NCBI GenBank assembly: GCA_003170275.1
Contig: PNAM01000088.1
Coordinates: 1-64,000, forward strand
Direction of reading: 5' to 3'
Source: Myxococcales bacterium
GTDB lineage: Bacteria > Myxococcota_A > Polyangia > Palsa-1104
DNA length: 64,000 nucleotides
The notes beneath the pieces were generated by a model. That model worked only from the letters and a program-made list of their open reading frames with translations, did not search any database and had not been told where the DNA came from. Of this stretch, positions 8,583 to 29,483 are shown one piece after another. Position 1 is the first letter of the stretch. Each line of letters begins with the position of its first letter. The translations under genes and the position numbers were made by a program.

Positions 8583-9851
8583 TCAGAGCTTGAGCTCTTC
8601 GTCGATGCGCGCGGAGAAGCGCTCGATCGGCTGCGCACCGACGAGGATGCGGCCGTTGATGAAGAACGTCGGCGTGCCGCTCGCGCCCAGCGCCGCGCCC
8701 TGCTTGGCGTCGTCGTCCACGCGCTGCTTCCATTTGCCACCGTCGAGCGCGGTCTTCCAGCGATCGAGATCGAGCCCGATCGCCGCCGCGTACGCGTCGA
8801 GGTCGGCGCGCTCGAGCCGCTGCTGGTTGGCGAACAGCTTGTCGTGCAGCTCCCAAAACTTGCCCTGCGCGTTGGCCTCGAGCGACGCCTCCGCCGCGAG
8901 GTGCGCGTGATCGTGGAACGGCAGCGGCAGGTGCTTGAACACCAGCCGCACGCGCCCTTTGTACTTCTGCATCACCGTCGCCAGCGTCGCGTTGGCGCGC
9001 GAGCAGAACGGGCACTGGAAGTCCGACCACTCGACGATCGTCACGCGCGCACGCTTCTCGCCGCGAATCGGCGCTCCTCCCAGCTCGATCTTGTGCACGG
9101 TCTTGTCCTCGTCGGCCGCCGGCGAGCCGGGGCGCGCGGGCGGCTCCTCGTACTTCTCCTTGCCGTGCGCGACCAGCACGTCGTACACGTGCGCCGGCTG
9201 CACGCCGGCCTTGAGCGCCTTGTCGGCGGTGACCAGCTCCTCGTCGACCATCGCGGTGAACTTCTCGAGTGGCTGCGCACCGACGAGGATGCGCCCGTTG
9301 ATGAAGAAGGTCGGCGTGCCGTTCGCGCCCACGCGCTTGGCCTCGGCCACGTCGGCCTGGATCACGCCGTCATAGGCCGATCCTTCGCGCGGCTGCGCGA
9401 TGCCCGCCGCGCTGGCGTACTCGGCGAGCGACGGCGCGTCGAGCTTCTGCTGGTTCTTGAACAGCGTGTCATGCAGCTCCCAGAACTTGCCGGCGGTGTG
9501 CGCGGCCATCGCCAGGCGCGCCGCGGGCATGGCGTTGACGTGGAACGGCAGCGGCATGTTCTTCCACACCACGCGCACGTCGTTCGGATATTTCTGCATC
9601 ACCTCGGCGAGCGTCGGCTCGACCCGCGCACAGAACGGACATTGAAAATCCGAGAACTGCACGATGGTCACGCGCGCGTTCGGCGGTCCCTTGACCGGCG
9701 CCGCGGCGCCGAGCGGCAGCCGATAGCGCTCCACCGACGGATCGGGCGCGAAGCTGCCCTGGGCCTTGTTGGTCTTCGGCGTGGTCGAATCCGCTCGGCC
9801 CAGCGCAGCGACCAGCAGGAACGCGGCAATCATTCCAAGGCGAATGCGCAT
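8583..9851 (-). CDS. Two-domain DsbA-like thiol oxidoreductase
   Basis: A 422-aa exported protein: signal peptide (residues 1-20) then two tandem Thioredoxin_4/DsbA-type modules. Active sites are C71-P-F-C74 and C280-P-F-C283, each within FQCPFC, and each module ends with a cis-Pro loop GTPTFFINGRILVGAQP. The only cysteines are the four in the CxxC motifs. The linker around 235-255 is Pro/Ala-rich. Ribosome site GGGGAG is 6 bases before the ATG. It lies directly downstream of the terminator that follows the four-domain paralogue, so it may depend on readthrough or its own promoter. Function: periplasmic disulfide formation, isomerisation or reduction; direction not readable from sequence. Confidence 0.88.
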   Translation of the reverse strand: MRIRLGMIAAFLLVAALGRADSTTPKTNKAQGSFAPDPSVERYRLPLGAAAPVKGPPNARVTIVQFSDFQCPFCARVEPTLAEVMQKYPNDVRVVWKNMPLPFHVNAMPAARLAMAAHTAGKFWELHDTLFKNQQKLDAPSLAEYASAAGIAQPREGSAYDGVIQADVAEAKRVGANGTPTFFINGRILVGAQPLEKFTAMVDEELVTADKALKAGVQPAHVYDVLVAHGKEKYEEPPARPGSPAADEDKTVHKIELGGAPIRGEKRARVTIVEWSDFQCPFCSRANATLATVMQKYKGRVRLVFKHLPLPFHDHAHLAAEASLEANAQGKFWELHDKLFANQQRLERADLDAYAAAIGLDLDRWKTALDGGKWKQRVDDDAKQGAALGASGTPTFFINGRILVGAQPIERFSARIDEELKL

Positions 9852-9919: not shown

Positions 9920-12532
9920 TTAGTGCTTCTTCTTCAGCTCCTCGTCGATGATCGACGCGAAGCTCTCGAACGGCATCGCCCCGGCGATCTTCTTGCCGTT
10001 GATGAAGAAGGTCGGCGTGCCGAAGCCGCCGCCGCCGAGCCCATTGGCGTAGGCGACGTCGGCAGCGACCGCGGTCTTGAACTTGTTGCCGTCCAGATCC
10101 GCCTTGAACTTCTCCACGTTCAGCCCGATCTCCTGCGCGTACTTCTCGAGGTCGGGCCGGTTGAGCGCCTGCTGGTTGGCGAACAGCTTGTCGTGCATCT
10201 CCCAGAACTTGCCCTGCTCATTGGCCGCCATCGAGGCCTCGGCGGCTAGCTGCGCGTGATCGTGGAACGGCAGCGGATACTGCCGGAAGGCCAACCGCAC
10301 CTTGCCCTTGTACTTCTCCTCGATCTGCTTGACCGTCGGCACCACGCGCGAGCAGAACGGGCACTGGAAGTCCGAGAACTCGACGATCTGCACGGGCGCC
10401 GACTTCGGCCCGACCGCCGGCGCGTTGCCCGCATCGACCTTGTAGACCGTCTTGTCCTCGGCCGGAGCACCCTGCGGCGCCTGCGCCGGCGCGGCCGCCA
10501 CTTCGGCCTTGGCGTCCTTCATCATCGCGTCGTAGAGCTTGGCCGCCGGCGTGCCCTTCTTCATGAGCGCGTCCGCGTTCTTCAGCTCCTCGTCGATCTT
10601 GGCCTTGAACGCCTCGAACGGCTGCGCGCCGACGAACGGCTTGCCGTTGATGAAGAACGAGGGTGTGCCGCGCGCGCCGATCTTGTTGCCCTCGGCCTGC
10701 TCGGCGTCGACCTTCTGCTTCCACTTGCCCGAGTCCAGGTCGGACTTGAACTTCTCCATGTTCAGGCCGATCTCGCCCGCGTACTTCTCCAGGGCCGGGC
10801 GCTCGAGCGCGGTCTGGTTGGTGAACAGCTTCTTGTGCATCTCCCAGAACTTGCCCTGCGCCTTGGCCGCCAGCGCCGCCTCGGCCGCCAGGTGCGCGTT
10901 GTTGTGGAACGGCAGCGGTAGCTGCTTGAACGCCACGCGCACGGTGTCCTTGTACGCCTCCATCACCTTGTCGACGGTCGGCTCGACGCGGCCGCAGAAC
11001 GGGCACTGGAAGTCCGAGAACTCGACGATGGTCACCTTGGCGACCTTGGCGCCCTTGACCGGCGCGTCCCCGACGATCGCCCGGTAGACGGTGTTGTTGT
11101 CCGGCTCACCGGGGCGCGCCGCCGCCGCTGCTGCCGGCGCCTGATCGGCCTTGTCCTTGCCGTCCTTGGTCAGCTCGGCGTACAGGTCGGCCGGCTTGAC
11201 GCCGCGCTTGAGCGCCGCGTTGGCCGTTTCGATCTCCTTGTCGATCACCGCCTTGAACTGCTCGACCGGCTGCGCGCCACGGAGCGGGCGGCCGTTGATG
11301 AAGAACGACGGCGTGCCGCGCGCGCCCAGCCGCTCGGCGAGCGCCATGTCTTCCTTGATCGACGGCTCGGCCTTCTTCGCCGTGATCGCCGCCTTCCACT
11401 TGTTGATGTTGAGGCCGAGCTCGTTCGCATACTTCTCGTAGGTCGCGTCGTCGAGGTGCGCCTGATCCGCGAAGATCTTGTCGTGCATCTCCCAGAACTT
11501 GCCCTGCTCACCGGCCGCCATCGCCGCCATCGCCGCGGGCGTCGCGTTGGGGTGGAACGGCAGCGGGTTGTTCTTCCACACCACGCGGATGTCCTTGCCG
11601 TAGTCCTTCTCGATCTGGGTGACGGTCGGCTCGACGCGCGAGCAGAACGGGCACTGGAAGTCCGAGAACTGCACGACGGTGACCTTGGCGGTCTTGGAGC
11701 CGCGCTCGGGCGAGCTGCCCACCGGCACCTTGTAGACCGCGGCCGGATCGGCCGTCGCAGGCTGCGCCGGCTTGGGCGGCTGGTTGGCGTCGGCGACGGC
11801 GGCGCCCGGCTTGGCGTTGCGAGTCAGCGCGTCGTACACCTGCCCGGCGGCGACGCCGGCGTTGATCGCCTTGGTGGCGTTGGCGATCTCTTCGTCGATC
11901 ACCTTCTTGAACGCCTCGAACGGCTGCGCGCCGGAGAGCGGGCGGCCGTTGATGAAGAACGACGGCGTGCCACGCGCGCCGAACTTGGCGGCCTCATCCT
12001 GATCGGCCTTGATCGCCGCGGTGTACTTCGGCGTGTCGAGCGCTTCCTTGACCTTGGCCGCGTCGAGCCCGAGCTCGCCCGCGTACTTCTCCAGGCTCGC
12101 GCGATCGAGCGCCTGCTGGTTCTTGAACAGCTTGTCGTGCGCCTCCCAGAACTTGCCCTTCTCGTTGGCGGCCAGCGCGATCTGCGCCGCCGGGGTGGCG
12201 TTCTGGTGGAACGGCAGCGGGTTGTTCTTCCACGCCACGCGGATGTCCTTGCCGTAGGTCTTCATGATCTGATCGACCGTCGGCTCGACGCGCGAGCAGA
12301 ACGGGCACTGGAAGTCGGAGAACTCGACGATGGTGACCTTGGCCTTTTCCGAGCCCTTGACCGGCGCGTTGCCGACTGGCACGTGGTAGCGATCGACGCT
12401 CGGATCGGGAACCGCCGCGGCGGGAATGACCGCCAGCGGTGCGTCGCCGTGGGCGCCTTGCATGTAACCGCCGAGGAAATACCCGACGGCGAGCGAGACC
12501 AACATTCCGATGATGGCTGTACCTTTGCTCAT
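9920..12532 (-). CDS. Four-domain (tandem) DsbA-like thiol oxidoreductase
   Basis: An 870-aa protein with an N-terminal hydrophobic segment (residues 6-24) that may be an anchor, then four consecutive DsbA/Thioredoxin_4 modules of about 215 aa. The active sites are C76/C79, C294/C297, C510/C513 and C724/C727, all CPFC in the context FSDFQCPFC. Each module has the cis-Pro loop GTP(S/T)FFING. No other cysteine exists in the protein. Ala/Pro-rich linkers near 245-265, 460-480 and 675-692 separate modules. Ribosome site AGGAAAGG precedes the ATG. Typical DsbA has one module, so a string of four is unusual. It probably handles periplasmic disulfides; the genes just upstream encode secreted proteins with conserved cysteines. 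Confidence 0.9.
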   Translation of the reverse strand: MSKGTAIIGMLVSLAVGYFLGGYMQGAHGDAPLAVIPAAAVPDPSVDRYHVPVGNAPVKGSEKAKVTIVEFSDFQCPFCSRVEPTVDQIMKTYGKDIRVAWKNNPLPFHQNATPAAQIALAANEKGKFWEAHDKLFKNQQALDRASLEKYAGELGLDAAKVKEALDTPKYTAAIKADQDEAAKFGARGTPSFFINGRPLSGAQPFEAFKKVIDEEIANATKAINAGVAAGQVYDALTRNAKPGAAVADANQPPKPAQPATADPAAVYKVPVGSSPERGSKTAKVTVVQFSDFQCPFCSRVEPTVTQIEKDYGKDIRVVWKNNPLPFHPNATPAAMAAMAAGEQGKFWEMHDKIFADQAHLDDATYEKYANELGLNINKWKAAITAKKAEPSIKEDMALAERLGARGTPSFFINGRPLRGAQPVEQFKAVIDKEIETANAALKRGVKPADLYAELTKDGKDKADQAPAAAAAARPGEPDNNTVYRAIVGDAPVKGAKVAKVTIVEFSDFQCPFCGRVEPTVDKVMEAYKDTVRVAFKQLPLPFHNNAHLAAEAALAAKAQGKFWEMHKKLFTNQTALERPALEKYAGEIGLNMEKFKSDLDSGKWKQKVDAEQAEGNKIGARGTPSFFINGKPFVGAQPFEAFKAKIDEELKNADALMKKGTPAAKLYDAMMKDAKAEVAAAPAQAPQGAPAEDKTVYKVDAGNAPAVGPKSAPVQIVEFSDFQCPFCSRVVPTVKQIEEKYKGKVRLAFRQYPLPFHDHAQLAAEASMAANEQGKFWEMHDKLFANQQALNRPDLEKYAQEIGLNVEKFKADLDGNKFKTAVAADVAYANGLGGGGFGTPTFFINGKKIAGAMPFESFASIIDEELKKKH

Positions 12533-13200: not shown

Positions 13201-14223
13201 TCATTTAGATGACTGGGTGTGCTCCGCTCGATAGTCGGCCAGGATCACCAGCACGCGCTGGAGCAGGTCGGCGCGGATCAGCCGCTCGCCCAGGCGATCG
13301 CGGACCGTGCGCGCAGCGGAGAGGAACTCCGCGCGCAGCGCCTCGCTCACCGGCGTCGTCTTCAGCCCCTGCTTCTCGAACAGGCCGCCGAGCAGCGCGT
13401 CGTCGATCTGCCGGCCGGCTTCGCCCATGCGCAGCGCGAACTTGACGGCGGCCGAGCGCACCGACTGCTGGTGCTCGACGGGCAGGCGATCCCACGCGCG
13501 GTTGGCCACCACCAGGCAGCCCCACACCAACGCCAGCCGGAGCTTCAACAGATAGTGCGCGCGCGTATACCACTGAAACGCGAGCGCGGCGGTGGGGATG
13601 ACCAGGAAGCCGTCGACGCGGTGATCGTCGTAGGCGGCAGCGCCCTCGGTGAGCGGCAGCGAGACGGTCTTCAGCCCGAGCTCGGGATCGGTGAGCTTGG
13701 CCGGCCAGTCGAGGTCCCAGCGCCACATGCGCGTCTTGCGCAGCTCGTCGAGCGTGCGGATGGGCGCGCGCGAGAGCACCATCTCCTGCCCGAGCGCCGT
13801 CGACGACAAGTGAACGAACCCGGCGGCGCGGAACTCCTCGTCGAAGGTCGGCTTGAGCCGGCTGAGCACGTGCGCCGCTTCGTCGCGGTTGGCAAACAGC
13901 CCGGGCACGCGCATCATCGCCATCGACGGCGACGCCTTCATGCACAGCGGGCCGCCGGAGCCGGCGCCGTCGAGCTGGCCGCGCTCGATGCGGCCGAGCA
14001 TCTCGACGTCGTCGCCGGCGATGCCGCCGAAGTACCACTTGAGCCTGACCTCGCCCTTGGTGGCGATCTCGACGTCGCGGCTCAGCGCGCGCGCCTCGCG
14101 GGCCCACGAGGTGCCGTCGGGCGCGACGGTGCCGATGCGCAGGATGTACTTGGGCTCGGCGTGCGCGCCCGTCGACAAGCTCAAAAGGAGCGGCAGCACG
14201 AGGAAATGACGCGCGCGCATCAT
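13201..14223 (-). CDS. DctP-like TRAP-type substrate-binding protein, paralogue 5 of 5
   Basis: About 340 aa: signal peptide ending at TGAHA, then the TRAP/DctP periplasmic binding fold. Seen motifs: PDGTSWAREA near the N-terminus, WYFGGIAGDDVEM, GQLDGAGSGGPLC, a typical DctP core LGLKTVSLPLTEGAAAYDDHRVDGF, and a C-terminal ILADYRAEH helix shared by the paralogues. The mature protein has exactly two Cys (GGPLC and VWGC). Start ATG 14223 overlaps the upstream stop and has GGAG in front; a second ATG follows immediately. A hairpin at 13167-13190 lies just after the stop. No DctQ/DctM membrane subunits are present, so it may be a sensor or soluble carrier rather than a classic transporter part. 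Confidence 0.82.
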   Translation of the reverse strand: MMRARHFLVLPLLLSLSTGAHAEPKYILRIGTVAPDGTSWAREARALSRDVEIATKGEVRLKWYFGGIAGDDVEMLGRIERGQLDGAGSGGPLCMKASPSMAMMRVPGLFANRDEAAHVLSRLKPTFDEEFRAAGFVHLSSTALGQEMVLSRAPIRTLDELRKTRMWRWDLDWPAKLTDPELGLKTVSLPLTEGAAAYDDHRVDGFLVIPTAALAFQWYTRAHYLLKLRLALVWGCLVVANRAWDRLPVEHQQSVRSAAVKFALRMGEAGRQIDDALLGGLFEKQGLKTTPVSEALRAEFLSAARTVRDRLGERLIRADLLQRVLVILADYRAEHTQSSK

Positions 14224-15242
14224 TTCGCGCTCCGGTGCTCGGCGCGATAGTCGGCGAGCATCGCCAGCACCTGCTGCAGGAGCTGGGGGGGCACCAGCTT
14301 CTCGCCCAGCCGATCGCGCGCGACGCGTGCGGCGGCGAGGAAGTCGTTGCGCAACGCGGTCGATACCGGGTTGCGGACCACGCCCTGTTTTTCGAACAGC
14401 CCGCCGAGCAGCGTGTCGTCCAGCTGGCGGCCGGCCTCCTCGATGCGCGCGCTCAGCTTGGCGCCGGCGGCGCGCAGCAGGTTCTGGTGCTCGACCGGTA
14501 GGCGGTCGAACGAGCGCGCGGTGATGAACGCGCAGCCCCACAGGTACGAGGTGTGCAGATCGGTGAGGTACAACGAGCGCGAGAACCACTGGAACGCGAG
14601 CGCCGCCGACGGGATGGCGAAGAACCCGTCGACGCGCTGCTCGTCGAACGCGCGCCCCGCCTCCTCGAGCGGCAGCGCGACCACGTTCATGCCGAGCTGG
14701 CGCGCGCTCAGCAGCCCCAGTTGGTCGAGGTCCCATCGCCACAGCCGAGCGCGTTTGAGATCGTCGAAGGTGCGCACCGGTTGGCGCGAGAACACCACCT
14801 CGGGCCCGAGCCCCGACAGGCTGAGCAGCACGTGACCCGACTGGCGGAACTCCTGCTCGAGCGTGGGCGCCAGGCGTCCGAGCACGTAGGCGCCCTCGTC
14901 GCGATTCTGGAACACGCCCGCCACGCGCATCACGCGCATCGACGGCGCGAGCTGCTGGCACAACATGCCGCCCGACGCGCCGCCGTCCAGCTGGCCGCGC
15001 CGCACGCGCTCACCGACCTGCACGTCGTCGCCGGCGATGCCGCCGAAGAACCACTTCACCTGCACCTCGCCGTGCGAGAGCGTGTCGACCTCGCGCGAAA
15101 ACGCGCGGATCTCGCGCGCCCACGAGGTCCCGTCGGGCGCGACGGTGGCCATGCGCAGCACGTACTTCGGCGCGGCGGCGGCCGGGCGGCACAGCGCGAG
15201 CGCGAGCGCGAGCGCGAGCGTGGCGAGGCGCAGGGCCATCAT
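14220..15242 (-). CDS. DctP-like TRAP-type substrate-binding protein, paralogue 4 of 5
   Basis: About 340 aa, same architecture as its neighbours. The signal peptide contains a run of ALALALALAL encoded by a hexanucleotide repeat (15194-15220). Motifs: PDGTSWAREI, WFFGGIAGDDVQV, GQLDGGASGGMLC, LGMNVVALPLEEAGRAFDEQRVDGF, and C-terminal MLADYRAEH. Exactly two cysteines remain after signal cleavage (GGMLC, LWGC). Its ATGATG start overlaps the stop of paralogue 3 and its stop overlaps the start of paralogue 5, so translation is coupled along the array. The ligand is unknown. Confidence 0.82.
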   Translation of the reverse strand: MMALRLATLALALALALCRPAAAAPKYVLRMATVAPDGTSWAREIRAFSREVDTLSHGEVQVKWFFGGIAGDDVQVGERVRRGQLDGGASGGMLCQQLAPSMRVMRVAGVFQNRDEGAYVLGRLAPTLEQEFRQSGHVLLSLSGLGPEVVFSRQPVRTFDDLKRARLWRWDLDQLGLLSARQLGMNVVALPLEEAGRAFDEQRVDGFFAIPSAALAFQWFSRSLYLTDLHTSYLWGCAFITARSFDRLPVEHQNLLRAAGAKLSARIEEAGRQLDDTLLGGLFEKQGVVRNPVSTALRNDFLAAARVARDRLGEKLVPPQLLQQVLAMLADYRAEHRSAK

Positions 15243-16306
15243 CGACCCGGCGTTTCGCGCGCGGGTGCAGGCAGCTCGGCCTCGCGGTGCTCGGAGCGAT
15301 AGTCGGCGAGCATGGCCAGCACCTGCTGCAGCGTCGCGCCCGGCACCAGCTTGTCGCCCAGGCGCTCGCGGGCGAGGCGCGCGGCGGCGAGAAACTCCGA
15401 GCGCATGGAGTCGGCGGGCTGGGTGAGCTTGATGCCCTGCTTCTGGAACACCCCGCCGAGCAGCGTCTCGTCCTGCTGGCGGCCGACCTCGTCGATGCGC
15501 GCGCCGGCCTTGGCGCCTGCCGCGCGGAACGCCTGCTGCTCCTCGAGCGTGAGCCGCTCGAACGCGCGGTTGGAGACCGCCAGGCAGCCGTACGAATAGC
15601 CGATCGGCAGGCTGAGCACGTAGCGCACCAGCGACGACCACTGGAACGCCAGCGCGCCCGAGGGATTGACGATCATCCCGTCGACCTTGCCCTCTTCGTA
15701 CATGCGGCCCGCCTCGTCGAGCGAGCCGGTCACCGTGTTGAAGCCGAGCTCGTTGTCGAGCAGCAGCCCGCGATCGTCGATGCTGACGTGGAAGATGCGC
15801 GTCTTGCGCAGCTCGTCGAGCGTGCGGATCGGCGAGCGCGAGAACACCAGGTCGGGGCCGAGGCCGGTGGCGGCGACGTAGACGAAGCCGTTCTCGAGGA
15901 ACTCCGCCTCGATGGTGGACTTGAAGCGGTTCATCACGTGCGACGCTTCGTCGCGGCTGTTGAACACGCCGCGCACGTTGACCACCCGCATAGTCGGCGA
16001 GATCGCCTGGCACAGGTCACCGCCCGAGGCTGCGCCGTCGAGCTGGCCGCGACGAATGCGGTCGGCGAGCTGGCGCTCGTCACCGGCGATGCCGCCGAAG
16101 AACCACTTCACCTCCACCGCGCCCTTGGTGGCGGCGCCGACGTCGCGGCCGATCGCGCGCAGCTCGCGCGCCCAGGCGGTGCCGTCGGGCGCGGCGGTAG
16201 CCAGGCGGATCACCGTCCGGCGCCACTGCTCGCTGCGCGCCGCGCCGCCGGCAGCGACGGCAATCGCGACGGCGAACGCCAACCACGCTGCGCGCGCGCG
16301 CCTCAC
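15239..16306 (-). CDS. DctP-like TRAP-type substrate-binding protein, paralogue 3 of 5
   Basis: About 355 aa from GTG 16306, which overlaps the stop of paralogue 2 (GTGA). Signal peptide AWLAFAVAIAVAAGG. Motifs: PDGTAWAREL, WFFGGIAGDERQL, GQLDGAASGGDLC, LGFNTVTGSLDEAGRMYEEGKVDGM, AFQW and C-terminal MLADYRSEH followed by an extra short tail. Two conserved cysteines (GGDLC, SYGC). The binding-core segment is the most divergent around FHVSIDDRGLLL, where the others have WRWD-type sequence, so its ligand may differ. Confidence 0.82.
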   Translation of the reverse strand: MRRARAAWLAFAVAIAVAAGGAARSEQWRRTVIRLATAAPDGTAWARELRAIGRDVGAATKGAVEVKWFFGGIAGDERQLADRIRRGQLDGAASGGDLCQAISPTMRVVNVRGVFNSRDEASHVMNRFKSTIEAEFLENGFVYVAATGLGPDLVFSRSPIRTLDELRKTRIFHVSIDDRGLLLDNELGFNTVTGSLDEAGRMYEEGKVDGMIVNPSGALAFQWSSLVRYVLSLPIGYSYGCLAVSNRAFERLTLEEQQAFRAAGAKAGARIDEVGRQQDETLLGGVFQKQGIKLTQPADSMRSEFLAAARLARERLGDKLVPGATLQQVLAMLADYRSEHREAELPAPARETPGR

Positions 16307-17319
16307 TTGACGCGCTCTCGATGCTCGGCGCGGTAGTCGGCGACCAGGGTCCCGACGCGCGCGCGCAGGCTCGCCGGCACGAGCTGCTCCTCCAGCTTGT
16401 CGCGCGCCGCGCGTGCGGCCCCGAACAGCTCGCTGCGCAGCGCGTCGCTCGGCTGCTGCAGGCGCACACCCTTCTTCTGGAACACACCGCCGAACAGCTG
16501 CTCGTCGGTCTTCACGCCGATCTCGGTGAAGCGCACGCCGGCCTGCACGGCGGCGGCGCGCACCGCCTGCTGGTGCTCGGGCGAGAGCTTGTCGAACGAC
16601 TTCGAGGTGGCGACCAGGCAGCCCGCCAGGTAACCGAGGCGCACGTCGAGCAGGTTCGGCGCGCGCGGCAAGAGCTGGAACGCCAGCGCGGCCGCCGAGG
16701 TCACCACGAACCCGTCGAGCTTCCCGTCGTCGAAGGCGCGCGCCGCCTGCTCGACGGGGAGCGCCACCGCGGGCAGCCCCATCTCCTTGGACATCGCGAT
16801 CACCACCTGATCGCCCTCCCAGCGCCACAGCCGCAAGCGGCGCAGCTCACCGAGCGAGCGCGCCGGCGCGCGCGTGAAGAACACGTCGGGGCCGAGCACG
16901 CTGGTCGCGAGCAGCGCGTAGCCGGATCTTTGGAACTCATCGGCGAAGGTGCCGTTGAGCCGCTGAAGGACGTGATTGGCCTCGCCCACGCTCTCGAACT
17001 CGCCGAGCATGCGCAGCGCGCGCATCGAAGGCGACAGGCGCTGGCACACCAGCCCGCCCACCGTGCCGTCGAGTTGGCCGCGGCGGATGCGCTCCTCGAC
17101 CTCGAGCTCGGTGCCGGCGATTGCGCTCAGGTACAGCTTGATCGCCACCTCGCCGTTGCTCGCGGCGGCGACGTCGGCGGCGAAGCGCTTGAGCTCCTGC
17201 GCCCAGGCGGTGCCCTCGGGCGCCACCGCGGCCAGGCGCAGCACATGCTTGGGCTCGGCGCGCGCGGCGGTCGCGACGCACAAGAGGGCCGAAAGGACCG
17301 ACAGGCGCGCGCGCGACAT
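16303..17319 (-). CDS. DctP-like TRAP-type substrate-binding protein, paralogue 2 of 5 (divergent)
   Basis: About 338 aa from ATG 17319, overlapping the stop of paralogue 1. Signal peptide ending ATAARA. It keeps PEGTAWAQEL, GQLDGTVGGLVC, LGPDVFFTRAPARSL, LPAVALPVEQAARAFDDGKLDGF and C-terminal LVADYRAEH, plus both conserved cysteines (GGLVC, LAGC). It departs from the other four in two places: the GGIAGDD loop is SAIAGTE, and the conserved AFQW becomes AFQLLP. These changes fall in likely ligand-facing loops, so it may bind another ligand or none. Confidence 0.82.
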   Translation of the reverse strand: MSRARLSVLSALLCVATAARAEPKHVLRLAAVAPEGTAWAQELKRFAADVAAASNGEVAIKLYLSAIAGTELEVEERIRRGQLDGTVGGLVCQRLSPSMRALRMLGEFESVGEANHVLQRLNGTFADEFQRSGYALLATSVLGPDVFFTRAPARSLGELRRLRLWRWEGDQVVIAMSKEMGLPAVALPVEQAARAFDDGKLDGFVVTSAAALAFQLLPRAPNLLDVRLGYLAGCLVATSKSFDKLSPEHQQAVRAAAVQAGVRFTEIGVKTDEQLFGGVFQKKGVRLQQPSDALRSELFGAARAARDKLEEQLVPASLRARVGTLVADYRAEHRERVK

Positions 17320-18341
17320 CAAGGCGCCTTCGCGTGCTGCCGTCGATACTCGTCGAGGAGCACGGTCACGCGCGTCATGAGCGCGACCGGCATCAGCTTG
17401 TCGCCCAGCCGCTCGCGCGCCATCCGCGCCGACGCCTCGAGCTCGCGGCGAAATTCGTCGGGCACCGGCACGGTGGTCACGCCCTGGTGCTGGAACAGGC
17501 CGCCGAGCAGCGACTCGTCCTGCCGCTGCATGACGTCGCTGAGCCGCGAGCGCAGGCGCGCCGCCGCCAGTCGCAGCGTCTGCTGATGCTCGATGGGCAG
17601 CCGATCGAACGCGCGGTTGGATACCAGGAGGCACGCGGTCAGGTACGAGAGCCGCACGTCCTCGGCGTACTTGGCCTGCGCCGACCACTGGAACGCGAGC
17701 ATCGCGCCGGGGATCGAGATGAACCCCGAGTGCCGGTTCTCGGCGTAGGCCTTGCCCGCCTCCGCGACGCCGAGCGGCAAGACGTTCCAGCCCATCTCGT
17801 CGAGGATGGCGCGCTGCACGTCGTCGGTATCCCAGATCCAGAGTCTTTCCTTCTTGAGCTCGGCGAGCGTGCGCAGCGGACGCCGCGAGAACACATCGCT
17901 CGGCCCGATCCCGGTGTCGGCGAGGTAGACGAAGCCGTTGGCGCGCGCCTCCAGCTCGATCGCCGGGCGGAGCTGCCCGGCCACGTACGCCGACTCCTGG
18001 TAGGTGCGGTACAGGCCGACCAGTCGCAGCGCGCGATGGGTGGGCGCGCGCTTTTCGCACAGCATGCCGCCCGAGGCGATCCCGTCGAGCTGGCCGCGGT
18101 CGACGCGATCGGCGGACTGCACGTCGTCGCCGGCGATGCCGCCCCACACCCACTTGACGGTGACCTCGCCCCTGGTCTCGGTCTCGACCTCGCGGCCGAA
18201 CGCCTTGAGCTCGCGCGCGAACGCAGTCCCGTCGGGCACGATGGTGGCCATCCGCAGCGTGAGCTTGAGCTCGGGCGCGCCCGCGGCCGAGGAGAGCAGT
18301 GCGCCGGCGATCATCGCCGCACGCAGCGCGAGGCGTTTCAC
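17319..18341 (-). CDS. DctP-like TRAP-type substrate-binding protein, paralogue 1 of 5
   Basis: About 340 aa from GTG 18341, which overlaps the stop of the Ser/Thr kinase gene (GTGA at 18341-18338). Signal peptide ALRAAMIAGALLSSAAG. Motifs: PDGTAFAREL, WVWGGIAGDDVQS, GQLDGIASGGMLC, MGWNVLPLGVAEAGKAYAENRHSGF, AFQW. The C-terminus LLDEYRRQH is a variant of the shared LADYRAEH. Two conserved cysteines (GGMLC, LTAC). It is first in the array and directly coupled to the kinase, which suggests that kinase and binding proteins serve one function. Confidence 0.82.
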   Translation of the reverse strand: MKRLALRAAMIAGALLSSAAGAPELKLTLRMATIVPDGTAFARELKAFGREVETETRGEVTVKWVWGGIAGDDVQSADRVDRGQLDGIASGGMLCEKRAPTHRALRLVGLYRTYQESAYVAGQLRPAIELEARANGFVYLADTGIGPSDVFSRRPLRTLAELKKERLWIWDTDDVQRAILDEMGWNVLPLGVAEAGKAYAENRHSGFISIPGAMLAFQWSAQAKYAEDVRLSYLTACLLVSNRAFDRLPIEHQQTLRLAAARLRSRLSDVMQRQDESLLGGLFQHQGVTTVPVPDEFRRELEASARMARERLGDKLMPVALMTRVTVLLDEYRRQHAKAP

Positions 18342-20275
18342 GGCTGTTTTCCCGGCGTGGCGCCGTTGGCTGCCTCCGCGCCGTTCTGTGCGCCGAGCAA
18401 CAGCCGCAGGGTTTGCCCCTGCTCGATGGTGATGTGGGTGACCTGGCTGTGCCGGCGCGCGCCGTCCCTCACCTCGACGGTGTGGCCGCCGATGGAAATC
18501 TCGATGCCCAGCGTCGGCGTGGTGTAGCCGGTGTTGACGCCGTCGATCCACACCTCGGCGGCGGAGTTGGCGTCGACCATCAGCGTGCCGCGCGGCTGCT
18601 TCTCGGGCACCAGCGCGAGCTGCAGCACGGCCGCCTTGTCGTCGGGCGTGATCGGCCGCGTGAGCGTCTCGTAGCCGGTCTTCTCGATGCGCAGCTCGTG
18701 GAAGTCGTCGTCGGTGACCTCGACGGTGGTCGGCGACTCGCCGAGGACCAGGCGCTGATCTAGGAAAACCGAGGCCCCGTCGGGCACCGAGCGGACGTCG
18801 ACCTTGTGGGTGACCGGCGGCAGCGTGACCTGCACCGCGGTCCGCTCGCCGCTGCGCACCGTCACGGTTTGGCTCACCGGCGCGGTTCCGACGCGCTGGA
18901 TCTTGATCGCGTGCGGCCCGGGCTGAAGCTCGGTGGCGAGCGTGGGCGTGGTCTGCGGCAGCGCGGCGCCGTCGATCTCGACCAGCGCGCCAGGCGGCTC
19001 CGAGAGCACGAACAGCGCGCCGCGCCCGCCGCCGCCCGACTTGCGACCGATGCGCGAGGCGGCGAAGCCTCCGCCGAAGCCCATCAGCACCACCGAGACC
19101 GCCGCCAGCACCAGGCGCTTCTTGCTGCGCGGCCGAAGCGACTTGCGCGCCAGCGCGAGCGCGCCCGAGTCGGCCGGCCGCAGCATGGTCACCGAGCGCG
19201 AATCGATCGGACGCGACGCCGCGCGCGCGCTCGCCTGGCTGCGGGTCAGCGCGCGGTCCACGTCGCTCATCGCCGACTCGAGCGCGGCGGCCATGTCGGC
19301 CATCGTCGAGTAGCGATCGTTGGGCTCCTTGTTCAGCGCGCACACCAGCACGCCTTCGAGCGCCGGCGGCGCCTCGGGCAGCACCTTGCGCAACGGCTCG
19401 GCCGGTTCGTGCACCTGCTTGTAGAGCACCTGGAAGTCGTCGTCGCCGGTGAACGGCGCGCGCCCGGTGATCATCTCGTAGACCAGGCAGCCGAGCGCGT
19501 AGATGTCCGAGCGCGCGTCCACGTTCTTGCCGGAGATCTGCTCGGGCGACATGTACTGCGGCGTGCCGATCAGCTGCCCGGTGCGCGTGAGCGACTGCTC
19601 GTCGCCGCGCTGCGCCAGCTTGGCCAGGCCGAAGTCGATCAGCTTGGGCACTTCGCCGTGCTCGACGTCCGAGGTCAACAGCACGTTGGACGGCTTGAGA
19701 TCGCGGTGGATCACCCCGACGGCGTGCGCCGCGCGCAGCGCCCAGCACAAGCGGATCGCCAGCGACACGGCGCGATCGGTCGGCAGCTTCTTGAGCTCGC
19801 GCAGCCGGCTCGACAGCGTGGTGCCGCGCACGTACTCCATCACCAGGAACGTCGGATCACCGACGACCAGGTCGAGGAACCGCGCGACGTTGGGGTGCTC
19901 GATCGCCGCGATCGCCTGCGCCTCGCGCTGGAAGCGCTGGCGGAAGTGCGCGTCGGCGAGCAGGTCGGGCTTGAGCAGCTTGACCGCCACCTTGAGCCCG
20001 ATCGACTGGTTCTCGGCGACGAACACCTCGCCCATCGCGCCGCCCCCCAGCCGCTCGAGGAGCTTGTAGCGGGCGCCGATGACCTGGCCGATGCTGAGCG
20101 CCTTGCGCCCGAGCAGCCGGGCGAAGTCCTCGGGCAGGGTATCGACGCGCGAGACGCCCCCGTCCGGCGTGCGCAGCCGGGTGGGATCCACGTCGGTGAG
20201 GCCCGTGAACGTCGGGTCCTCCTCTCTATGCGTCTCACCGGGATTCAGGCGATCCCGGTCGATCGGCTTGGCCAT
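18338..20275 (-). CDS. Membrane Ser/Thr protein kinase with PEGA repeats
   Basis: A 645-aa Hanks-type kinase. Residues 70-330 hold the kinase domain: GGGAMG loop (77-82), ATP Lys K99, catalytic HRDLKPSN (D192), DFG-type Asp D214 in IDFGLAK and GTPQYMSPEQ. A membrane segment lies at about 387-407. The outside part (418-625) has three PEGA-like units, for example SEPPGALVEIDG, SVPDGASVFLD and VDANSAAEVWIDG. PEGA domains bind envelope surfaces or peptides. The gene is first in a run followed by five DctP-like genes without a gap. The 97-base upstream spacer to the divergent metallophosphoesterase holds the likely promoter. Confidence 0.9.
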   Translation of the reverse strand: MAKPIDRDRLNPGETHREEDPTFTGLTDVDPTRLRTPDGGVSRVDTLPEDFARLLGRKALSIGQVIGARYKLLERLGGGAMGEVFVAENQSIGLKVAVKLLKPDLLADAHFRQRFQREAQAIAAIEHPNVARFLDLVVGDPTFLVMEYVRGTTLSSRLRELKKLPTDRAVSLAIRLCWALRAAHAVGVIHRDLKPSNVLLTSDVEHGEVPKLIDFGLAKLAQRGDEQSLTRTGQLIGTPQYMSPEQISGKNVDARSDIYALGCLVYEMITGRAPFTGDDDFQVLYKQVHEPAEPLRKVLPEAPPALEGVLVCALNKEPNDRYSTMADMAAALESAMSDVDRALTRSQASARAASRPIDSRSVTMLRPADSGALALARKSLRPRSKKRLVLAAVSVVLMGFGGGFAASRIGRKSGGGGRGALFVLSEPPGALVEIDGAALPQTTPTLATELQPGPHAIKIQRVGTAPVSQTVTVRSGERTAVQVTLPPVTHKVDVRSVPDGASVFLDQRLVLGESPTTVEVTDDDFHELRIEKTGYETLTRPITPDDKAAVLQLALVPEKQPRGTLMVDANSAAEVWIDGVNTGYTTPTLGIEISIGGHTVEVRDGARRHSQVTHITIEQGQTLRLLLGAQNGAEAANGATPGKQP

Positions 20276-21311: not shown

Positions 21312-21384
21312 GCTCGGATAGCTCAGCTGGTAGAGCAGCGGATTGAAAATCCGCGTGTCCCTGGTTCGATTCCGGGTCCGAGCA
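21312..21384 (+). tRNA. tRNA-Phe (GAA)
   Basis: A 73-base cloverleaf. Acceptor GCTCGGA (21312-21318) pairs with TCCGAGC (21377-21383); the anticodon arm is GCGGA-TTGAAAA-TCCGC with anticodon GAA; the T-arm contains GGTTCGATTCC. CCA is not encoded. The 3' part from 21338 is the left copy of the 50-bp integration repeat. Confidence 0.95.
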
Positions 21385-22312
21385 CTCTCTGAACTTCGCG
21401 CACCGACGGCGGTTTTGGTCTCGGCTTCCGTTCAGTGCGTCCATTAGGTCCAGCCGGACCGTTTCTGTCTGGCACGTATTTGTCACGGTCCGTAGCGCCG
21501 TCGGTCAGCTTCGCCATCGCCTTGGACAGCGTGAGGCGGTCGAGTCGGCCGTACACCAGTTCGACCATGCGCGCCGTCGTGTGGCCGAGAAGCTGCGCGA
21601 CCACGTAGCTATCCACTCCTTGTTGCTTCAACCAGGACGCGAACGTACGGCGCAGATCGTTGGGGCTCACTCTCTCGATGCCGGCCCGCTTGCAGGCTCG
21701 CGCGAGATCGCGCCGCGCGTTCAACCACTCGCCGGCGATGTGGCCGCTTCGATTCGACTGCGATTCCAAAACGGCGGCGAGCATCGGATGGAGAGGGACC
21801 ACCCGCTCGGATCGCTCGGTCTTGGTTCCTGCGATGAGAATGAGCCGCTGCTCGAAATCAACATGGTGCCAGCACAGCCCGTCAACTTCGCCGTCGCGGC
21901 CACCTGTGAACACCGCCAGCATCAACCAGAGCTGGCGAGGTGGCGTCAGCTCGGCAGCGAGGGCCTTGAACTCCGAGTGCGTCAAGTAGCGCTTCCGAGG
22001 GACGTACCGTACGCGGAATGTTGGAATGCACGCGCGCGCATCGCCGTGCATCATGCCGCGCTCTTTGGCAATGGTTAGCGATCGTCGGAGCGCGCACAGT
22101 TCCTTCCGTACGGTCTCGCGTGCCGCCCCTTCATCGAGACGGCGCTGGATGTAGCTCTGCACGTCATCGACGTGGAGGTGGTTCACGTCGAGATCACCAA
22201 TCAACCGAGCAACGTGGCTGCCGCGCTCAACGTACATCTTCACGGTTCCCGGAGCGTTCCCGATACAGCCGCGTGCTAGGACGGTAAAGGGTTTGTTGGC
22301 GGCGACGGGCAT
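21323..22312 (-). CDS. Tyrosine recombinase / integrase
   Basis: A 329-aa phage-type integrase. The N-terminal SAM-like DNA-binding domain (residues 20-90) is followed by the catalytic domain: R139 (TGGRDGE), K164 (GTKTE), the R221 box NDLRRTFASW, H244 (LLGHT) and nucleophile Y254 (VYGRL). The first His of the usual H-x-x-R box is Asn218 here. The last 20 or so residues are the antisense of the tRNA-Phe gene, so the reading frame runs through the attachment site. It should catalyse integration and excision at the 50-bp core. Confidence 0.9.
   Translation of the reverse strand: MPVAANKPFTVLARGCIGNAPGTVKMYVERGSHVARLIGDLDVNHLHVDDVQSYIQRRLDEGAARETVRKELCALRRSLTIAKERGMMHGDARACIPTFRVRYVPRKRYLTHSEFKALAAELTPPRQLWLMLAVFTGGRDGEVDGLCWHHVDFEQRLILIAGTKTERSERVVPLHPMLAAVLESQSNRSGHIAGEWLNARRDLARACKRAGIERVSPNDLRRTFASWLKQQGVDSYVVAQLLGHTTARMVELVYGRLDRLTLSKAMAKLTDGATDRDKYVPDRNGPAGPNGRTERKPRPKPPSVREVQRVLGPGIEPGTRGFSIRCSTS
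21338..21387 (+). other. Attachment site, left (attL, 50-bp core)
   Basis: Bases 21338-21387 are identical to 29434-29483. The core covers the anticodon stem-loop through the 3' end of tRNA-Phe plus three bases. Integration at this core leaves the tRNA intact on this side, next to the integrase gene. Confidence 0.9.
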
Positions 22313-22332
22313 CGCTTTGGGTAAGGTTGTGT

Positions 22333-22366
22333 TTGACTGTACGGCAAAATGCCGTACGCTTCAAGC
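22333..22366 (+). promoter_or_regulatory. Promoter and palindromic operator of the TacA/TacT-type operon
   Basis: GTACGGCAAAATGCCGTAC (22339-22357) is a perfect 7-bp dyad. A -35-like TTGACT (22333-22338) and a weak -10-like TACGCT (22355-22360) flank it with 16-base spacing, which puts the start of transcription at or near the ATG at 22367. Ribbon-helix-helix antitoxins of this type repress their own operon by binding such a palindrome. Confidence 0.55.
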
Positions 22367-22639
22367 ATGGCGAAGGCGAGCGCGAAGAAGACGGCCCGCA
22401 TGGAGATGCGCATCCCGCCCTCGGCGAAGGACTACATTCGCCGGGCGATGGCGATCTCGGGCCGATCGGCCGCCGAGCTTGCCTACGAGGGTGCCAAGCG
22501 GATCGTCGAGGAGCACGAGCGGATGGTGCTCACCGGGCGCGACCGCGAGGCGTTCCTCGAAGCCGTCCAGAGTCCCGCGCCGCCGGCCGAACGGTTGGTC
22601 GCGGCGCTACGCCGCCACGAAGAACTGCGCCGCAAGTGA
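22367..22639 (+). CDS. DUF1778/TacA-type antitoxin (ribbon-helix-helix)
   Basis: About 90 aa. The N-terminal half (KTARMEMRIPPSAKDYIRRA, then SGRSAAELAYEGAKRIVEEH) is the ribbon-helix-helix DNA-binding domain of DUF1778 antitoxins; the C-terminal part (DREAFLEAVQSP, PAERLVAALRRHEELRR) is the toxin-wrapping tail. Start ATG 22367 is preferred because ATG 22349 lies inside the operator palindrome; no ribosome site is seen for either, which fits a leaderless transcript. The stop overlaps the toxin start (GTGA), the usual coupling in this family. Confidence 0.88.
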   Translation: MAKASAKKTARMEMRIPPSAKDYIRRAMAISGRSAAELAYEGAKRIVEEHERMVLTGRDREAFLEAVQSPAPPAERLVAALRRHEELRRK

Positions 22640-23145
22640 AGCTCGCCTTCGAGCCGCTCAAGAAGAAGCACGATCGAGAATCGTTCACGAGTGGCGAGCC
22701 GGCGCTCGACGATTGGTTCCGCAAGCGCGCGCTGCAGGACGTGAAGCGCAACATCTCGCGCGTCTTCGTCGCGATGGACGAGGAGGGCGTTGCGGGCTTC
22801 TACAGCCTGAGCGCCTTCACGATCGCTCTCGCCAGCGTTCCATCCGATGTGGCGCACAAGCTGCCGCGCTATGACGCACTCCCGGCGGCGCTCATCGGTC
22901 GGCTCGCGCGTGCAGAGCGGGTGCGAGGCCAGGGAATCGGTGAGCTGCTCCTCGCCGACGCGATCAAGCGCGTCCTCGCCGTCGACGAATCGATGGCAAT
23001 TTTCGCCATCGTTGTCGATTCGAAGAACGAATCGGCGACAACGTTCTACGGATCGTTTGGTTTCTCGCCGTTTCCCGACACGCCTCGTCGACTTTTCCTG
23101 CTCACTGCGACCGCGCGCGCGGCAATTTTCGCTTCCACGCACTGA
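22636..23145 (+). CDS. GNAT toxin, TacT-type
   Basis: A 169-aa GNAT acetyltransferase, GTG start. TacT/AtaT-type toxins acetylate the amino group of aminoacyl-tRNA and block translation. Visible: N-terminal FEPLKKKHDRESFTSGEPAL typical of this class, acetyl-CoA loop RVRGQGIG (95-102) and the catalytic-region Tyr138 in TTFYGSFGF. It overlaps the antitoxin gene by 4 bases. It probably stabilises the integrative element by post-segregational killing or acts in stress response. Confidence 0.88.
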   Translation: MKLAFEPLKKKHDRESFTSGEPALDDWFRKRALQDVKRNISRVFVAMDEEGVAGFYSLSAFTIALASVPSDVAHKLPRYDALPAALIGRLARAERVRGQGIGELLLADAIKRVLAVDESMAIFAIVVDSKNESATTFYGSFGFSPFPDTPRRLFLLTATARAAIFASTH

Positions 23146-23249
23146 TTCGGCGACGGGGTTCGCATGGCATCGGTCCCTGCTCCGTGCTATGCAGGGCGTA
23201 GTCTCGTTCCAACGAGCGGCGTGAGCGGCCGTCATTTTCCTGCCGGCGC

Positions 23250-23404
23250 GTACCCGGCAGATAAATCACGTGTCCGAGGCACATGAATCGCAACGGGTTC
23301 GCACGCAAAGACACATAAACAGCGTCGCCATTTATGTGCAAAGGCGTTGCGATTTGCGTGTATTCGACGTCGCTGTTTATGTGATCGATTTATCTGCCAG
23401 GTAC
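23250..23404. repeat. 155-bp AT-richer palindromic element
   Basis: The ends are an 18-bp inverted repeat with one mismatch (GTACCCGGCAGATAAATC at 23250-23267 against 23387-23404). Inside, CACATAAACAGCG (23312-23324) recurs inverted at 23371-23383, and TTTATGTGC occurs again at 23331. The block is less GC-rich than the rest of the element and has no credible gene. It may be a short non-autonomous insertion, a recombinase or excisionase binding array, or a transfer or replication origin. The rest of the gap (23146-23249 and 23405-23572) shows nothing recognisable. Confidence 0.6.
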
Positions 23405-23572
23405 AACCATGCGGAATCACGCGATCGGTGCGATCAGGTAAACAGTTTTTCTGCCTCGACGATATTTCGCAGCGCCAGGGGGAGCAGGGTGCCGCAGAAA
23501 TCTCAGTGAGCACATCAAAGACGGCCTATAGAGCAGCTTCTTCGTGCAGCGGAGGGCGAACACGAAGCTGGT

Positions 23573-23878
23573 CTACACTCCCTTTAGGCGGACGCGCTTC
23601 TCGTCGAAGACGGCGTTGACTTCCAGTTTGCCACCGAGTGCTTCGATGTAGCGGCGCAGCACGCTCAGGACGTGATCGTCGCGGCGCTCGAACTCGCTGA
23701 CCTTCGCCTGTGCCATCTCGGCGGCGTCGGCGACGTCGAGCTGCGTCTTGCCGAGCGCCTTGCGCAGCTCGGGCAGGTTCATCTCGATCGCCACCTCGGC
23801 CTGCGCCTGCGCGCGCAGCCGGCTCAGCTTCTCTTCGCCGACACGCTTGCGCGCCCGCCAGAAGGGATATCCTGTCAA
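23573..23878 (-). CDS. Xre/HigA-like helix-turn-helix protein
   Basis: About 101 aa if it starts at TTG 23878; the start is uncertain because no ATG precedes the conserved part. The C-terminal 70 residues are a helix-turn-helix of the HigA-like antitoxin class: MNLPELRKALGKTQLDVADA, then QAKVSEFERRDDHVLSVLRR and IEALGGKLEVNAVF. Such proteins usually pair with a RelE/HigB-like toxin; none is present here. It lies downstream of a second HTH gene on the same strand with a 65-base gap. It is probably a transcriptional regulator within the element. Confidence 0.7.
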   Translation of the reverse strand: MTGYPFWRARKRVGEEKLSRLRAQAQAEVAIEMNLPELRKALGKTQLDVADAAEMAQAKVSEFERRDDHVLSVLRRYIEALGGKLEVNAVFDEKRVRLKGV

Positions 23879-23943
23879 GGGGATGGGTACAAGTGGATGG
23901 TCTTGCTCGGGCGCGGCGACGCGTGCACCGCGATCCGTTCCGC

Positions 23944-24246
23944 CTAATCGCGCGGCGAGCGAAGCAACTCCCACGCCTGCAACTCGAAGGCTTGACAGAG
24001 GCACGCCAGCGTCGTCATCGTGAGGTTCACCGTCGCGGCTTCCACCCGCTGGTAGACGCGAAGCGAAAGCTCGCTTTGGTGCGCGGCCTCCTCTTGACTC
24101 CATCCAGCATGGCTTCGCAGCCGCCGCACGTTGCGGGCGAGCGCGTTGACGATCCCTCGGTATTGACGGGCCGTTCGAGTCGATCTCACTGTGCGTGCTG
24201 GCATGCCGCAACGGAACCGTCGCTCATGGCGTGACTTGAAGACCAC
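23944..24246 (-). CDS. Xre-family helix-turn-helix regulator
   Basis: 100 aa with a Cro/C1-type HTH in the central part: ALARNVRRLRSHAGWSQEEA, then LSLRVYQRVEAATVNLTMTTLACLCQAF. An Arg-rich N-terminal stretch precedes it; an internal ATG (GMPARTVRS) could be the true start. It is divergent from the KaiC-like operon, sharing a 41-base spacer, so it is a good candidate for the regulator of that operon. Confidence 0.75.
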   Translation of the reverse strand: MVFKSRHERRFRCGMPARTVRSTRTARQYRGIVNALARNVRRLRSHAGWSQEEAAHQSELSLRVYQRVEAATVNLTMTTLACLCQAFELQAWELLRSPRD

Positions 24247-24287
24247 GTCTTGCAGGTGACGACTTCGAAGGCGTAAGCTACGGATCG

Positions 24288-24710
24288 TTGAACCGACCAG
24301 ACCCGGCGCAGCTCGAGAGGGCCAGGCGATTGCTGGCGCACGAGGGCGCGGCCGGCGGCGCAGCCACGCGTGCCAAGACGGCCGCCGGCCGAGTCTACGA
24401 CAAGGTCCACGTTCACCTGGTTCCCCTCGTGGGCATCGCCGGTGTCCACTTGCTGTTCGCGCGCAGCGCGAGGCTTGCGCAAGGCGAGTTCGCTCGATTC
24501 GCTGAGGTTTCCATCGACGAAGGCTCGACGAAGCTGCGCGAGTTTTTGCAAGCGCAAGACCCCGCCGTCGCCACGGAGTCGGCCGCAGCCCTGTTTGGAA
24601 ACTTCTTCACGCTCATCACGACCTTCATCGGAGAGCGACTTACGGCGCAGATGCTACGCAGCGCCTGGCCGAGCTTCGACGAGACCGCACCCACGGAGAA
24701 AAACAAATGA
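24288..24710 (+). CDS. Small protein upstream of the KaiC-like ATPase, unknown function
   Basis: 140 aa, TTG start at 24288; the stop overlaps the KaiC-like ATG (ATGA). It is predicted mainly helical, with HLVPLVGIAGVHLLFARSAR near residue 45 and a Phe-rich LFGNFFTLITTFIGERL helix near the C-terminus. It is not recognised as a known family. The coupling to the ATPase gene suggests an accessory subunit of the same signalling unit. Confidence 0.65.
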   Translation: MNRPDPAQLERARRLLAHEGAAGGAATRAKTAAGRVYDKVHVHLVPLVGIAGVHLLFARSARLAQGEFARFAEVSIDEGSTKLREFLQAQDPAVATESAAALFGNFFTLITTFIGERLTAQMLRSAWPSFDETAPTEKNK

Positions 24711-26467: not shown

Positions 26468-26481
26468 GAAGGGAGCGAGTA

Positions 26482-28356: not shown

Positions 28357-29204
28357 TTACGGAACAGGAGCAGGACGCGCATTACGATCCGATCGCGGAG
28401 CAAACCATGATCGCCGACTTGCGCGAAGCGAACGAGAAGCTGATCGCCGCAGCGATTCGGGCGCAAGAGCTGGCGGACGAGGCTGCCGCGGCCATGCAGC
28501 GCGCAGAGGAGAGCGAGAGCGAGCTCCGTGCGGTCGCGGAGTTCCGAGAGATGTTCATCGGCATCCTCGGGCATGACCTGCGTAACCCGCTCATGTCGAT
28601 CCGCATGGCCGCAGCCTTGCTACTTCGGCGCGGCCAGCTCGACGAGCAGAACGCAGAGACGGCCGCGCGCATCATCCGCGGCGGCCAACGCATGAGCCGA
28701 ATGATCACGCAGTTGCTCGATCTCACGCGGGCTCGTCTTGGCGGCGGGTTGCCGATCGAACCGAAGCCGACCGATCTGCGTGAGGTCTGCCGGAACGTCG
28801 TCGAGGAATTCGAGGCGACCATCCAACTGGAAGTGGATGGCGACGTGACGGGCACCTGGGACGAGGACCGCCTGGCGGAGGTCCTCTCCAACCTGGCGGG
28901 GAACGCCATCGAGTACGCCACGCCGGGAACGGTCGTCAGGGTCAAGGCGCGCGCCGACGGTGGAGAGGTTGTCGTCGAGGTCAGCAACCAGGGAGATCCC
29001 ATCCCTCCGGACGTGCTCCCGTTCATCTTCGAGCCCTTCCGCAGAGCGAGGCAGCGCGAGAAGTCAGCACGGGGGAACCTTGGCCTCGGCCTCTACATCG
29101 CCCACCAGATCGTGCTCTCGCATGGCGGCACGCTCGACGCCCACTCTGCGGACGGCACGACCGCCTTTGTGATGCGCCTGCCGCGACCGTCCCCCCCGGC
29201 TTGA
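28353..29204 (+). CDS. Soluble histidine kinase, paralogue
   Basis: 283 aa, start overlapping the first kinase (ATGA). Residues 1-55 are a short helical lead. HisKA has H74 in GILGHDLRNPL; the ATPase domain has NLAGNAIEYA, SNQGDPIPPDVLPFIFEPF and GNLGLGLYIAHQI. From about residue 20 onward it matches the C-terminal part of the upstream kinase at most positions, so it arose by tandem duplication without the long coiled coil. No response regulator gene is in the element; the partners could form a heterodimer or share a remote regulator. Confidence 0.88.
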   Translation: MITEQEQDAHYDPIAEQTMIADLREANEKLIAAAIRAQELADEAAAAMQRAEESESELRAVAEFREMFIGILGHDLRNPLMSIRMAAALLLRRGQLDEQNAETAARIIRGGQRMSRMITQLLDLTRARLGGGLPIEPKPTDLREVCRNVVEEFEATIQLEVDGDVTGTWDEDRLAEVLSNLAGNAIEYATPGTVVRVKARADGGEVVVEVSNQGDPIPPDVLPFIFEPFRRARQREKSARGNLGLGLYIAHQIVLSHGGTLDAHSADGTTAFVMRLPRPSPPA

Positions 29205-29433
29205 GTCTCGCCACTTTGATCTGAGTTGCGAGCGCCAGGGCTACGGGGACCAGCTCCGATCTCCAGACGGGCAAGCGCGGAGGCTCACCCGTCGGCGCTG
29301 CGCTTCCACATTGAAGCATGACACCCTGGGGTCACGAGAAGACGCTTCCGCAGGCGCTTTCCCACTATTTTCCCACCGGCACCGTTCGTGGCTGAGTTGC
29401 GCCGTGCGATCGCACTCTTACGGCCGATCTCCC

Positions 29434-29483
29434 GCGGATTGAAAATCCGCGTGTCCCTGGTTCGATTCCGGGTCCGAGCACTC
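29434..29483 (+). other. Attachment site, right (attR, 50-bp core)
   Basis: An exact second copy of 21338-21387. It holds only the 3' portion of tRNA-Phe (from the anticodon stem), so it is not a tRNA gene. It marks the right boundary of the element. Bases 29205-29433, between the last kinase and this site, show no gene. Confidence 0.9.

Follow-up and report, generated by a model that had tools for sequence, protein, structure and literature searches.

A receptor Ser/Thr kinase and five transporter-less TatP-type binding proteins encoded in one operon of a Myxococcales bacterium

The window analyzed here, a stretch of 64,000 nucleotides, comes from the 8.17-Mb genome of Myxococcales bacterium GCA_003170275.1 (G000). 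Between positions 13201 and 18341 its minus strand carries five tandem genes for exported DctP-like binding proteins, in agreement with the original prediction: all five reading frames are intact, each product has an N-terminal signal, and each matches the corresponding Pfam and NCBIfam families. The same prediction had described five binding proteins standing alone, which they do not, as the array opens with a receptor Ser/Thr kinase gene (18338 to 20275). The features of the locus are as follows.

18338..20275, minus strand: gene for a receptor-type Ser/Thr kinase of 645 aa (Pfam Pkinase, 168 bits; PEGA, 93 bits)
19301..20068, minus strand: kinase catalytic domain, residues 70 to 325 (Pfam and whole-genome match coordinates)
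18380..19027, minus strand: PEGA-type region, residues 417 to 632, predicted to be periplasmic and a candidate for docking or sensing (PF08308 matches, AlphaFold2 strands)
17319..18341, minus strand: P1, DctP/TatP-like binding protein, first after the kinase, GTGA overlap (PF03480, 58.9 bits)
16303..17319, minus strand: P2, DctP/TatP-like binding protein, TGATG overlap with P1 (PF03480, 74.7 bits)
15239..16306, minus strand: P3, DctP/TatP-like binding protein, GTG start at 16306, GTGA overlap with P2 (PF03480, 58.9 bits)
14220..15242, minus strand: P4, DctP/TatP-like binding protein, ATGA overlap with P3 (PF03480, 82.4 bits)
13201..14223, minus strand: P5, DctP/TatP-like binding protein, ATGA overlap with P4 (PF03480, 74.7 bits; AlphaFold2 model)

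The junction sequences overlap by 1 to 4 bases at all five boundaries from the kinase through P5, and the kinase and P1 to P5 therefore constitute one translationally coupled six-gene operon with the kinase first. For P3, the GTG at 16306 was preferred over a start at 16282 because it gives the same 4-base overlap as the neighboring genes and a better signal peptide. Promoter and terminator scans yielded no usable signal. Next to the operon lie two tRNA-Phe(gaa) genes (21312 to 21385 and 29408 to 29481) that enclose a tyrosine-integrase-like reading frame (21323 to 22312), a GNAT-type pair (22367 to 23145), and a RecA/KaiC-like ATPase (24707 to 26467); with gene names read from the sequence only, the segment from 21312 to 29481 resembles an element integrated into tRNA-Phe.

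P1 to P5 are 338 to 355 aa long, each with a hydrophobic N-terminal signal, and all five exceed the cutoffs of Pfam DctP (PF03480; 59 to 82 bits versus 23.4) and NCBIfam TRAP_S1 (NF037995; 153 to 186 bits versus 50), so that the weak DctP scores named beforehand as a possible objection to the family assignment did not materialize. Their pairwise identity is 37 to 57%, which marks them as old paralogues rather than recent copies. An AlphaFold2 model of P5, built on a 26-sequence alignment (pLDDT 93), has the TRAP binding protein (SBP) fold, with query-normalized TM-scores of 0.70 to 0.82 to many TRAP SBPs in the PDB and E values down to 1.9e-22. The sequence motifs by which the five had originally been grouped are all present, and two of them, GQLDG and the YRAEH tail, recur over the 26 orphan DctPs of this genome.

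Residue conservation was assessed in an alignment of 53 members of the orphan DctP clade from four genomes, with positions numbered as in P5. Two cysteines, C94 and C236, are invariant in every complete sequence among the 53 orphans, and both are missing from nine TatP-like proteins of the same four genomes. The substrate-clamping arginine, which 96.8% of TRAP binding proteins retain (PMC5812351), is typical of TRAP SBPs and not strictly defining, with TatPs also lacking it; at the equivalent position (167, read off an alignment to 4p47) the orphans have tryptophan in 50 of 53 cases and phenylalanine in 3. TatPs from TPAT systems likewise carry Trp or Phe there, suggesting that loss of the arginine probably predates loss of the transporter. 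Arg152 is present in 52 of the 53 orphans and absent from the TPAT TatPs of these genomes. By sequence, the nearest PDB relative of the orphan DctPs is the TatP of Treponema. Downstream of the DctP array, with its invariant cysteine pair, and on the same strand, lie two tandem thioredoxin proteins (9920 to 12505 and 8583 to 9833 of the window), one of 861 aa with four DsbA/Thioredoxin_4 domains and the other with two.

The kinase has a single hydrophobic stretch at about residues 391 to 410, and its topology, read from this span, would place the catalytic domain in the cytoplasm and three PEGA-type beta domains (residues 417 to 632), C-terminal to the span, outside it. The AlphaFold2 model predicts beta domains with confidence over residues 417 to 630. 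The catalytic motifs K99, E118, HRD190-192, N197, and DFG214-216 are kept in all or nearly all of 11 relatives. With intact motifs, a membrane span, and a PEGA ectodomain, the protein has every feature of a receptor Ser/Thr kinase with PEGA domains. To our knowledge, no PEGA domain is known to bind an SBP.

Profile searches of the genome recovered 29 DctP, 2 DctM, 2 DctQ, and 2 full-length TatT proteins. Both DctQM pairs belong to complete TPAT operons (contigs C70 and C72), each with its own TatP and TatT, and a further TatP-like gene, on C80, is not accompanied by QM genes. The remaining 26 DctPs form a separate orphan group with no DctQM. No DctQ or DctM gene lies near the five-gene array, as had been predicted, the only two of each in the genome being those on C70 and C72; nor is there a TatT gene near it, the PF16811 matches in this genome falling on C70, C72, and, as a partial match, C80. 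The array is thus neither a complete TRAP transporter, having no cognate DctQ and DctM, nor a TPAT system, in which TatT and TatQM would stand beside TatP. A cognate DctQM pair elsewhere in the genome, with matching expression, had been named as the observation that would refute the prediction; taken literally, two DctQM pairs do exist, but each comes with a TatP and a TatT of its own, and neither of these TatPs groups with the five. We therefore rejected both a local and a distant DctQM as the cognate partner.

Orphan DctPs of this kind have a narrow distribution. In a scan of 84,980 species genomes, from which the genome of the window itself may be absent, close matches within the DctP clade were confined to three MAGs labeled Myxococcales or Polyangium (RYN_368, CRAIB_MAG117, and nzgw250), the other matches being TatP-like proteins at about 24 to 32% identity. 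In samples of the phylum, the DctP clade was found only in the window genome among 284 genomes (next best match, 221 bits), and the same was true of the kinase clade among 237. Within the order, where some of the genomes compared are incomplete, the DctP clade occurs in 3 of 14 genomes: that of the window, RYN_368 (G290), and CRAIB_MAG117 (G289); a search of five family members, some of these likewise incomplete, placed the kinase clade in these three only. In a phylogenetic tree, the orphan DctPs form one clade apart from all TatPs (support 100) within which genomes are intermixed and cross-genus pairs are clear, indicating that the DctP radiation is older than the genera. The kinase-linked DctPs are not one clade, a possibility that we rejected; they are scattered, with 13 changes on the tree under a label that also took in L144 and L148, both without a clade kinase, which suggests that the linkage was gained or lost several times.

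An orphan DctP lies directly downstream of all 11 intact clade kinases (five in the window genome, five in RYN_368, and one in CRAIB_MAG117, representing three genera), with a 4-base overlap between the two genes in 8 of the 11. In the window genome, a clade kinase stands directly upstream of a DctP at 5 of 18 orphan loci (the window, C80, C17, C28, and C48); at C80, three DctPs follow the kinase and two precede it. At one of the five linked loci of RYN_368, the kinase is followed by a run of five DctPs, and CRAIB_MAG117 has a single such locus. Each genome encodes at least 150 Ser/Thr kinases, and the chance of finding one upstream at 5 or more of 18 orphan loci is about 5e-5, a figure that rests on at most 176 candidate kinases among approximately 7,300 genes (an estimate from gene density) and serves as a guide only, the loci not being independent. 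Other kinases of these genomes reach at most 391 bits in the kinase profile search, versus at least 825 for clade members; because these 11 kinases served to build the profile, the constant association with DctP holds for the clade so defined, and a more distant member without DctP could escape it.

Gene order is kept at orthologous loci, namely C80, L127, and L149 in three genera and L048 and L137 in two, and the first three have flanking genes in common besides the kinase-DctP pair. Divergence of the kinase and of its first DctP was correlated across 11 pairs (r = 0.45, P = 0.002), but this Mantel signal was gone after orthologous loci were thinned to one each; the correlation arises only through orthologous loci, and we dropped co-divergence as support. 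At C108:11452-13025 of the window genome, a clade kinase is spread across two reading frames and runs into the contig end; it may be an assembly error, a pseudogene, or a genuine sixth kinase whose DctP lies past that end. A PEGA-like fragment upstream of a DctP at L144 was not counted as a kinase, and in CRAIB_MAG117 one further orphan DctP follows a different Ser/Thr kinase without PEGA domains.

Half of the orphan DctPs in the window genome (13 of 26) have no adjoining kinase. Across the genomes, singleton orphans occur with genes for FAD/2Fe-2S oxidases of the sarcosine/hydroxyproline-oxidase type (L039:7716-11701 and L146:482-3834), with a ProC-like gene nearby in two genera and a 4-base overlap in L039; such orphans may serve another purpose or may draw on the kinases too. 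At L138:4602-9041, an orphan DctP lies on the same strand between a hybrid histidine kinase with GAF, PAS, and receiver domains and an SBP_bac_3 binding protein.

Building on what is observed, that is, the operon, the features of the kinase, a TRAP SBP fold without DctQM, and the linkage, we favor with moderate confidence the explanation that the operon encodes a receptor Ser/Thr kinase together with five periplasmic binding proteins of the TatP type that have lost their role in transport and serve the kinase as ligand-sensing subunits. The ligand, docking, and signaling steps of this explanation are conditional. Each DctP-like protein would bind a different small molecule in the periplasm, and would do so not through the usual carboxylate-clamping arginine, which is replaced by tryptophan or, rarely, phenylalanine. 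The closed, ligand-bound DctP could then attach to the PEGA ectodomain in the manner of TatP docking to its extracytoplasmic partner TatT (PMC5812351), and docking would alter the activity of the cytoplasmic kinase, so that the presence of a ligand is converted into Ser/Thr phosphorylation. With several DctPs for each kinase, a single receptor would respond to several inputs, and orphan DctPs encoded at other loci may also work through these kinases. We propose docking and signaling on the grounds of the operon structure, the conserved linkage, the co-occurrence of the two clades, the lack of transporter partners, and the precedents of TatP-TatT and GlnH-GlnX-PknG. The original prediction had offered sensing, storage, or a not yet described partner; sensing through such a partner is favored here, although not on the grounds of the binding proteins being alone, and the kinase gene immediately upstream probably encodes that partner, while storage found no support.

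Three other explanations are less likely. The orphans might still be transport subunits, many of them served by the genome's two TatQM pairs, a model put forward for orphan Bug proteins in Bordetella, where 76 Bug SBPs are found for two TctAB sets (PMC5812351). The intact state of both DctQM pairs and the kinship of the orphans to the Treponema TatP are consistent with sharing, yet each pair comes with its own TatP and TatT, the orphans are a separate, fully supported clade with a cysteine pair that TatPs lack, the number of QM genes does not rise with the DctP expansion, and the kinase linkage would be left unexplained; we consider this reading unlikely. It seems quite improbable that the orphans use a distant permease other than DctQM and that the kinase only regulates uptake: a binding protein working with a non-QM carrier has a precedent in a TAXI protein with a GltS-type carrier (PMC12344293), but no permease gene was recognized directly beside the kinase-linked orphan loci, most neighbors being judged by the start of their sequence. 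We give equally little credence to the binding proteins being periplasmic scavengers or buffers for catabolic enzymes with the kinase an incidental neighbor spread by duplication, since, despite the scattered placement of kinase-linked DctPs and the oxidase-coupled singleton whose neighborhood is kept in two genera, the clade kinase never occurs without DctP where downstream sequence exists, and the pair is kept at orthologous loci in three genera.

The sensory operon that we favor has parallels in several known systems. In actinobacteria, the binding protein GlnH controls the Ser/Thr kinase PknG (PMC6069109, PMC9769921); in this GlnH-GlnX-PknG system, the SBP gene stands together with that of the Ser/Thr kinase, and the SBP signals amino acids to the kinase (PMC6069109), and SBP control of Ser/Thr kinases has been proposed as perhaps widespread (PMC6069109). 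The operon resembles it in pairing an extracytoplasmic SBP that has no transporter of its own with a Ser/Thr kinase, in one operon conserved for all 11 intact clade kinases, and in the proposed ligand signaling. However, PknG is soluble and needs the membrane protein GlnX, whereas the kinase described here spans the membrane and bears PEGA domains, and GlnH is a single amino acid SBP of another family, in contrast to up to five TatP-type DctPs per kinase. TPAT (TatP-TatT-TatQM; Tp0957/Tp0956 in Treponema) provides the closest SBPs by sequence, with a similar fold and a replaced clamping arginine; unlike TatPs, the orphans stand without TatT, Q, and M and combine the invariant cysteines with Arg152. 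Bordetella Bug proteins (TTT family) show a comparable large SBP expansion with few membrane partners, and one transporter SBP, BctC, signals through the sensor kinase BctE (PMC5812351), but there the SBPs are of the TctC family, the kinase is a histidine kinase, and BctDE have an operon of their own next to a complete transporter. SBP-kinase fusions such as MSMEG_1200 (StpK7) also tie an SBP-type domain to a Ser/Thr kinase (PMC6069109), and the kinase domain described here matches that of MSMEG_1200 at 189 bits; the fusion is one polypeptide, whereas here the genes are separate, the ectodomain is of the PEGA type, and several SBPs occur per kinase. The arrangement is a variant of SBP-linked Ser/Thr kinase signaling joined to a Bug-like expansion of transporter-less binding proteins. 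In the open-access literature on DctP with myxobacterial kinases, on PEGA kinases, and on orphan TRAP SBPs, we found no account of this arrangement.

Two open problems meet at this locus, the activation of Ser/Thr kinases and the role of orphan binding proteins. The activators of bacterial Ser/Thr kinases are called an outstanding question in a passage of PMC6069109, and members of the DctP clade are predicted to be soluble, so that both ligand binding and docking would be directly testable. More tentatively, we suggest that these bacteria may have a lineage-specific chemosensory system in which a few PEGA receptor Ser/Thr kinases each read several members of a repertoire of over 20 diverged TatP-type binding proteins without transporters; the choice of binding protein and not that of kinase would then set the range of signals. 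If the proposed sensory role is correct, SBP-controlled Ser/Thr kinases would extend from the GlnH type to the TRAP/TatP fold, beyond the actinobacteria, and to receptors with several inputs each.
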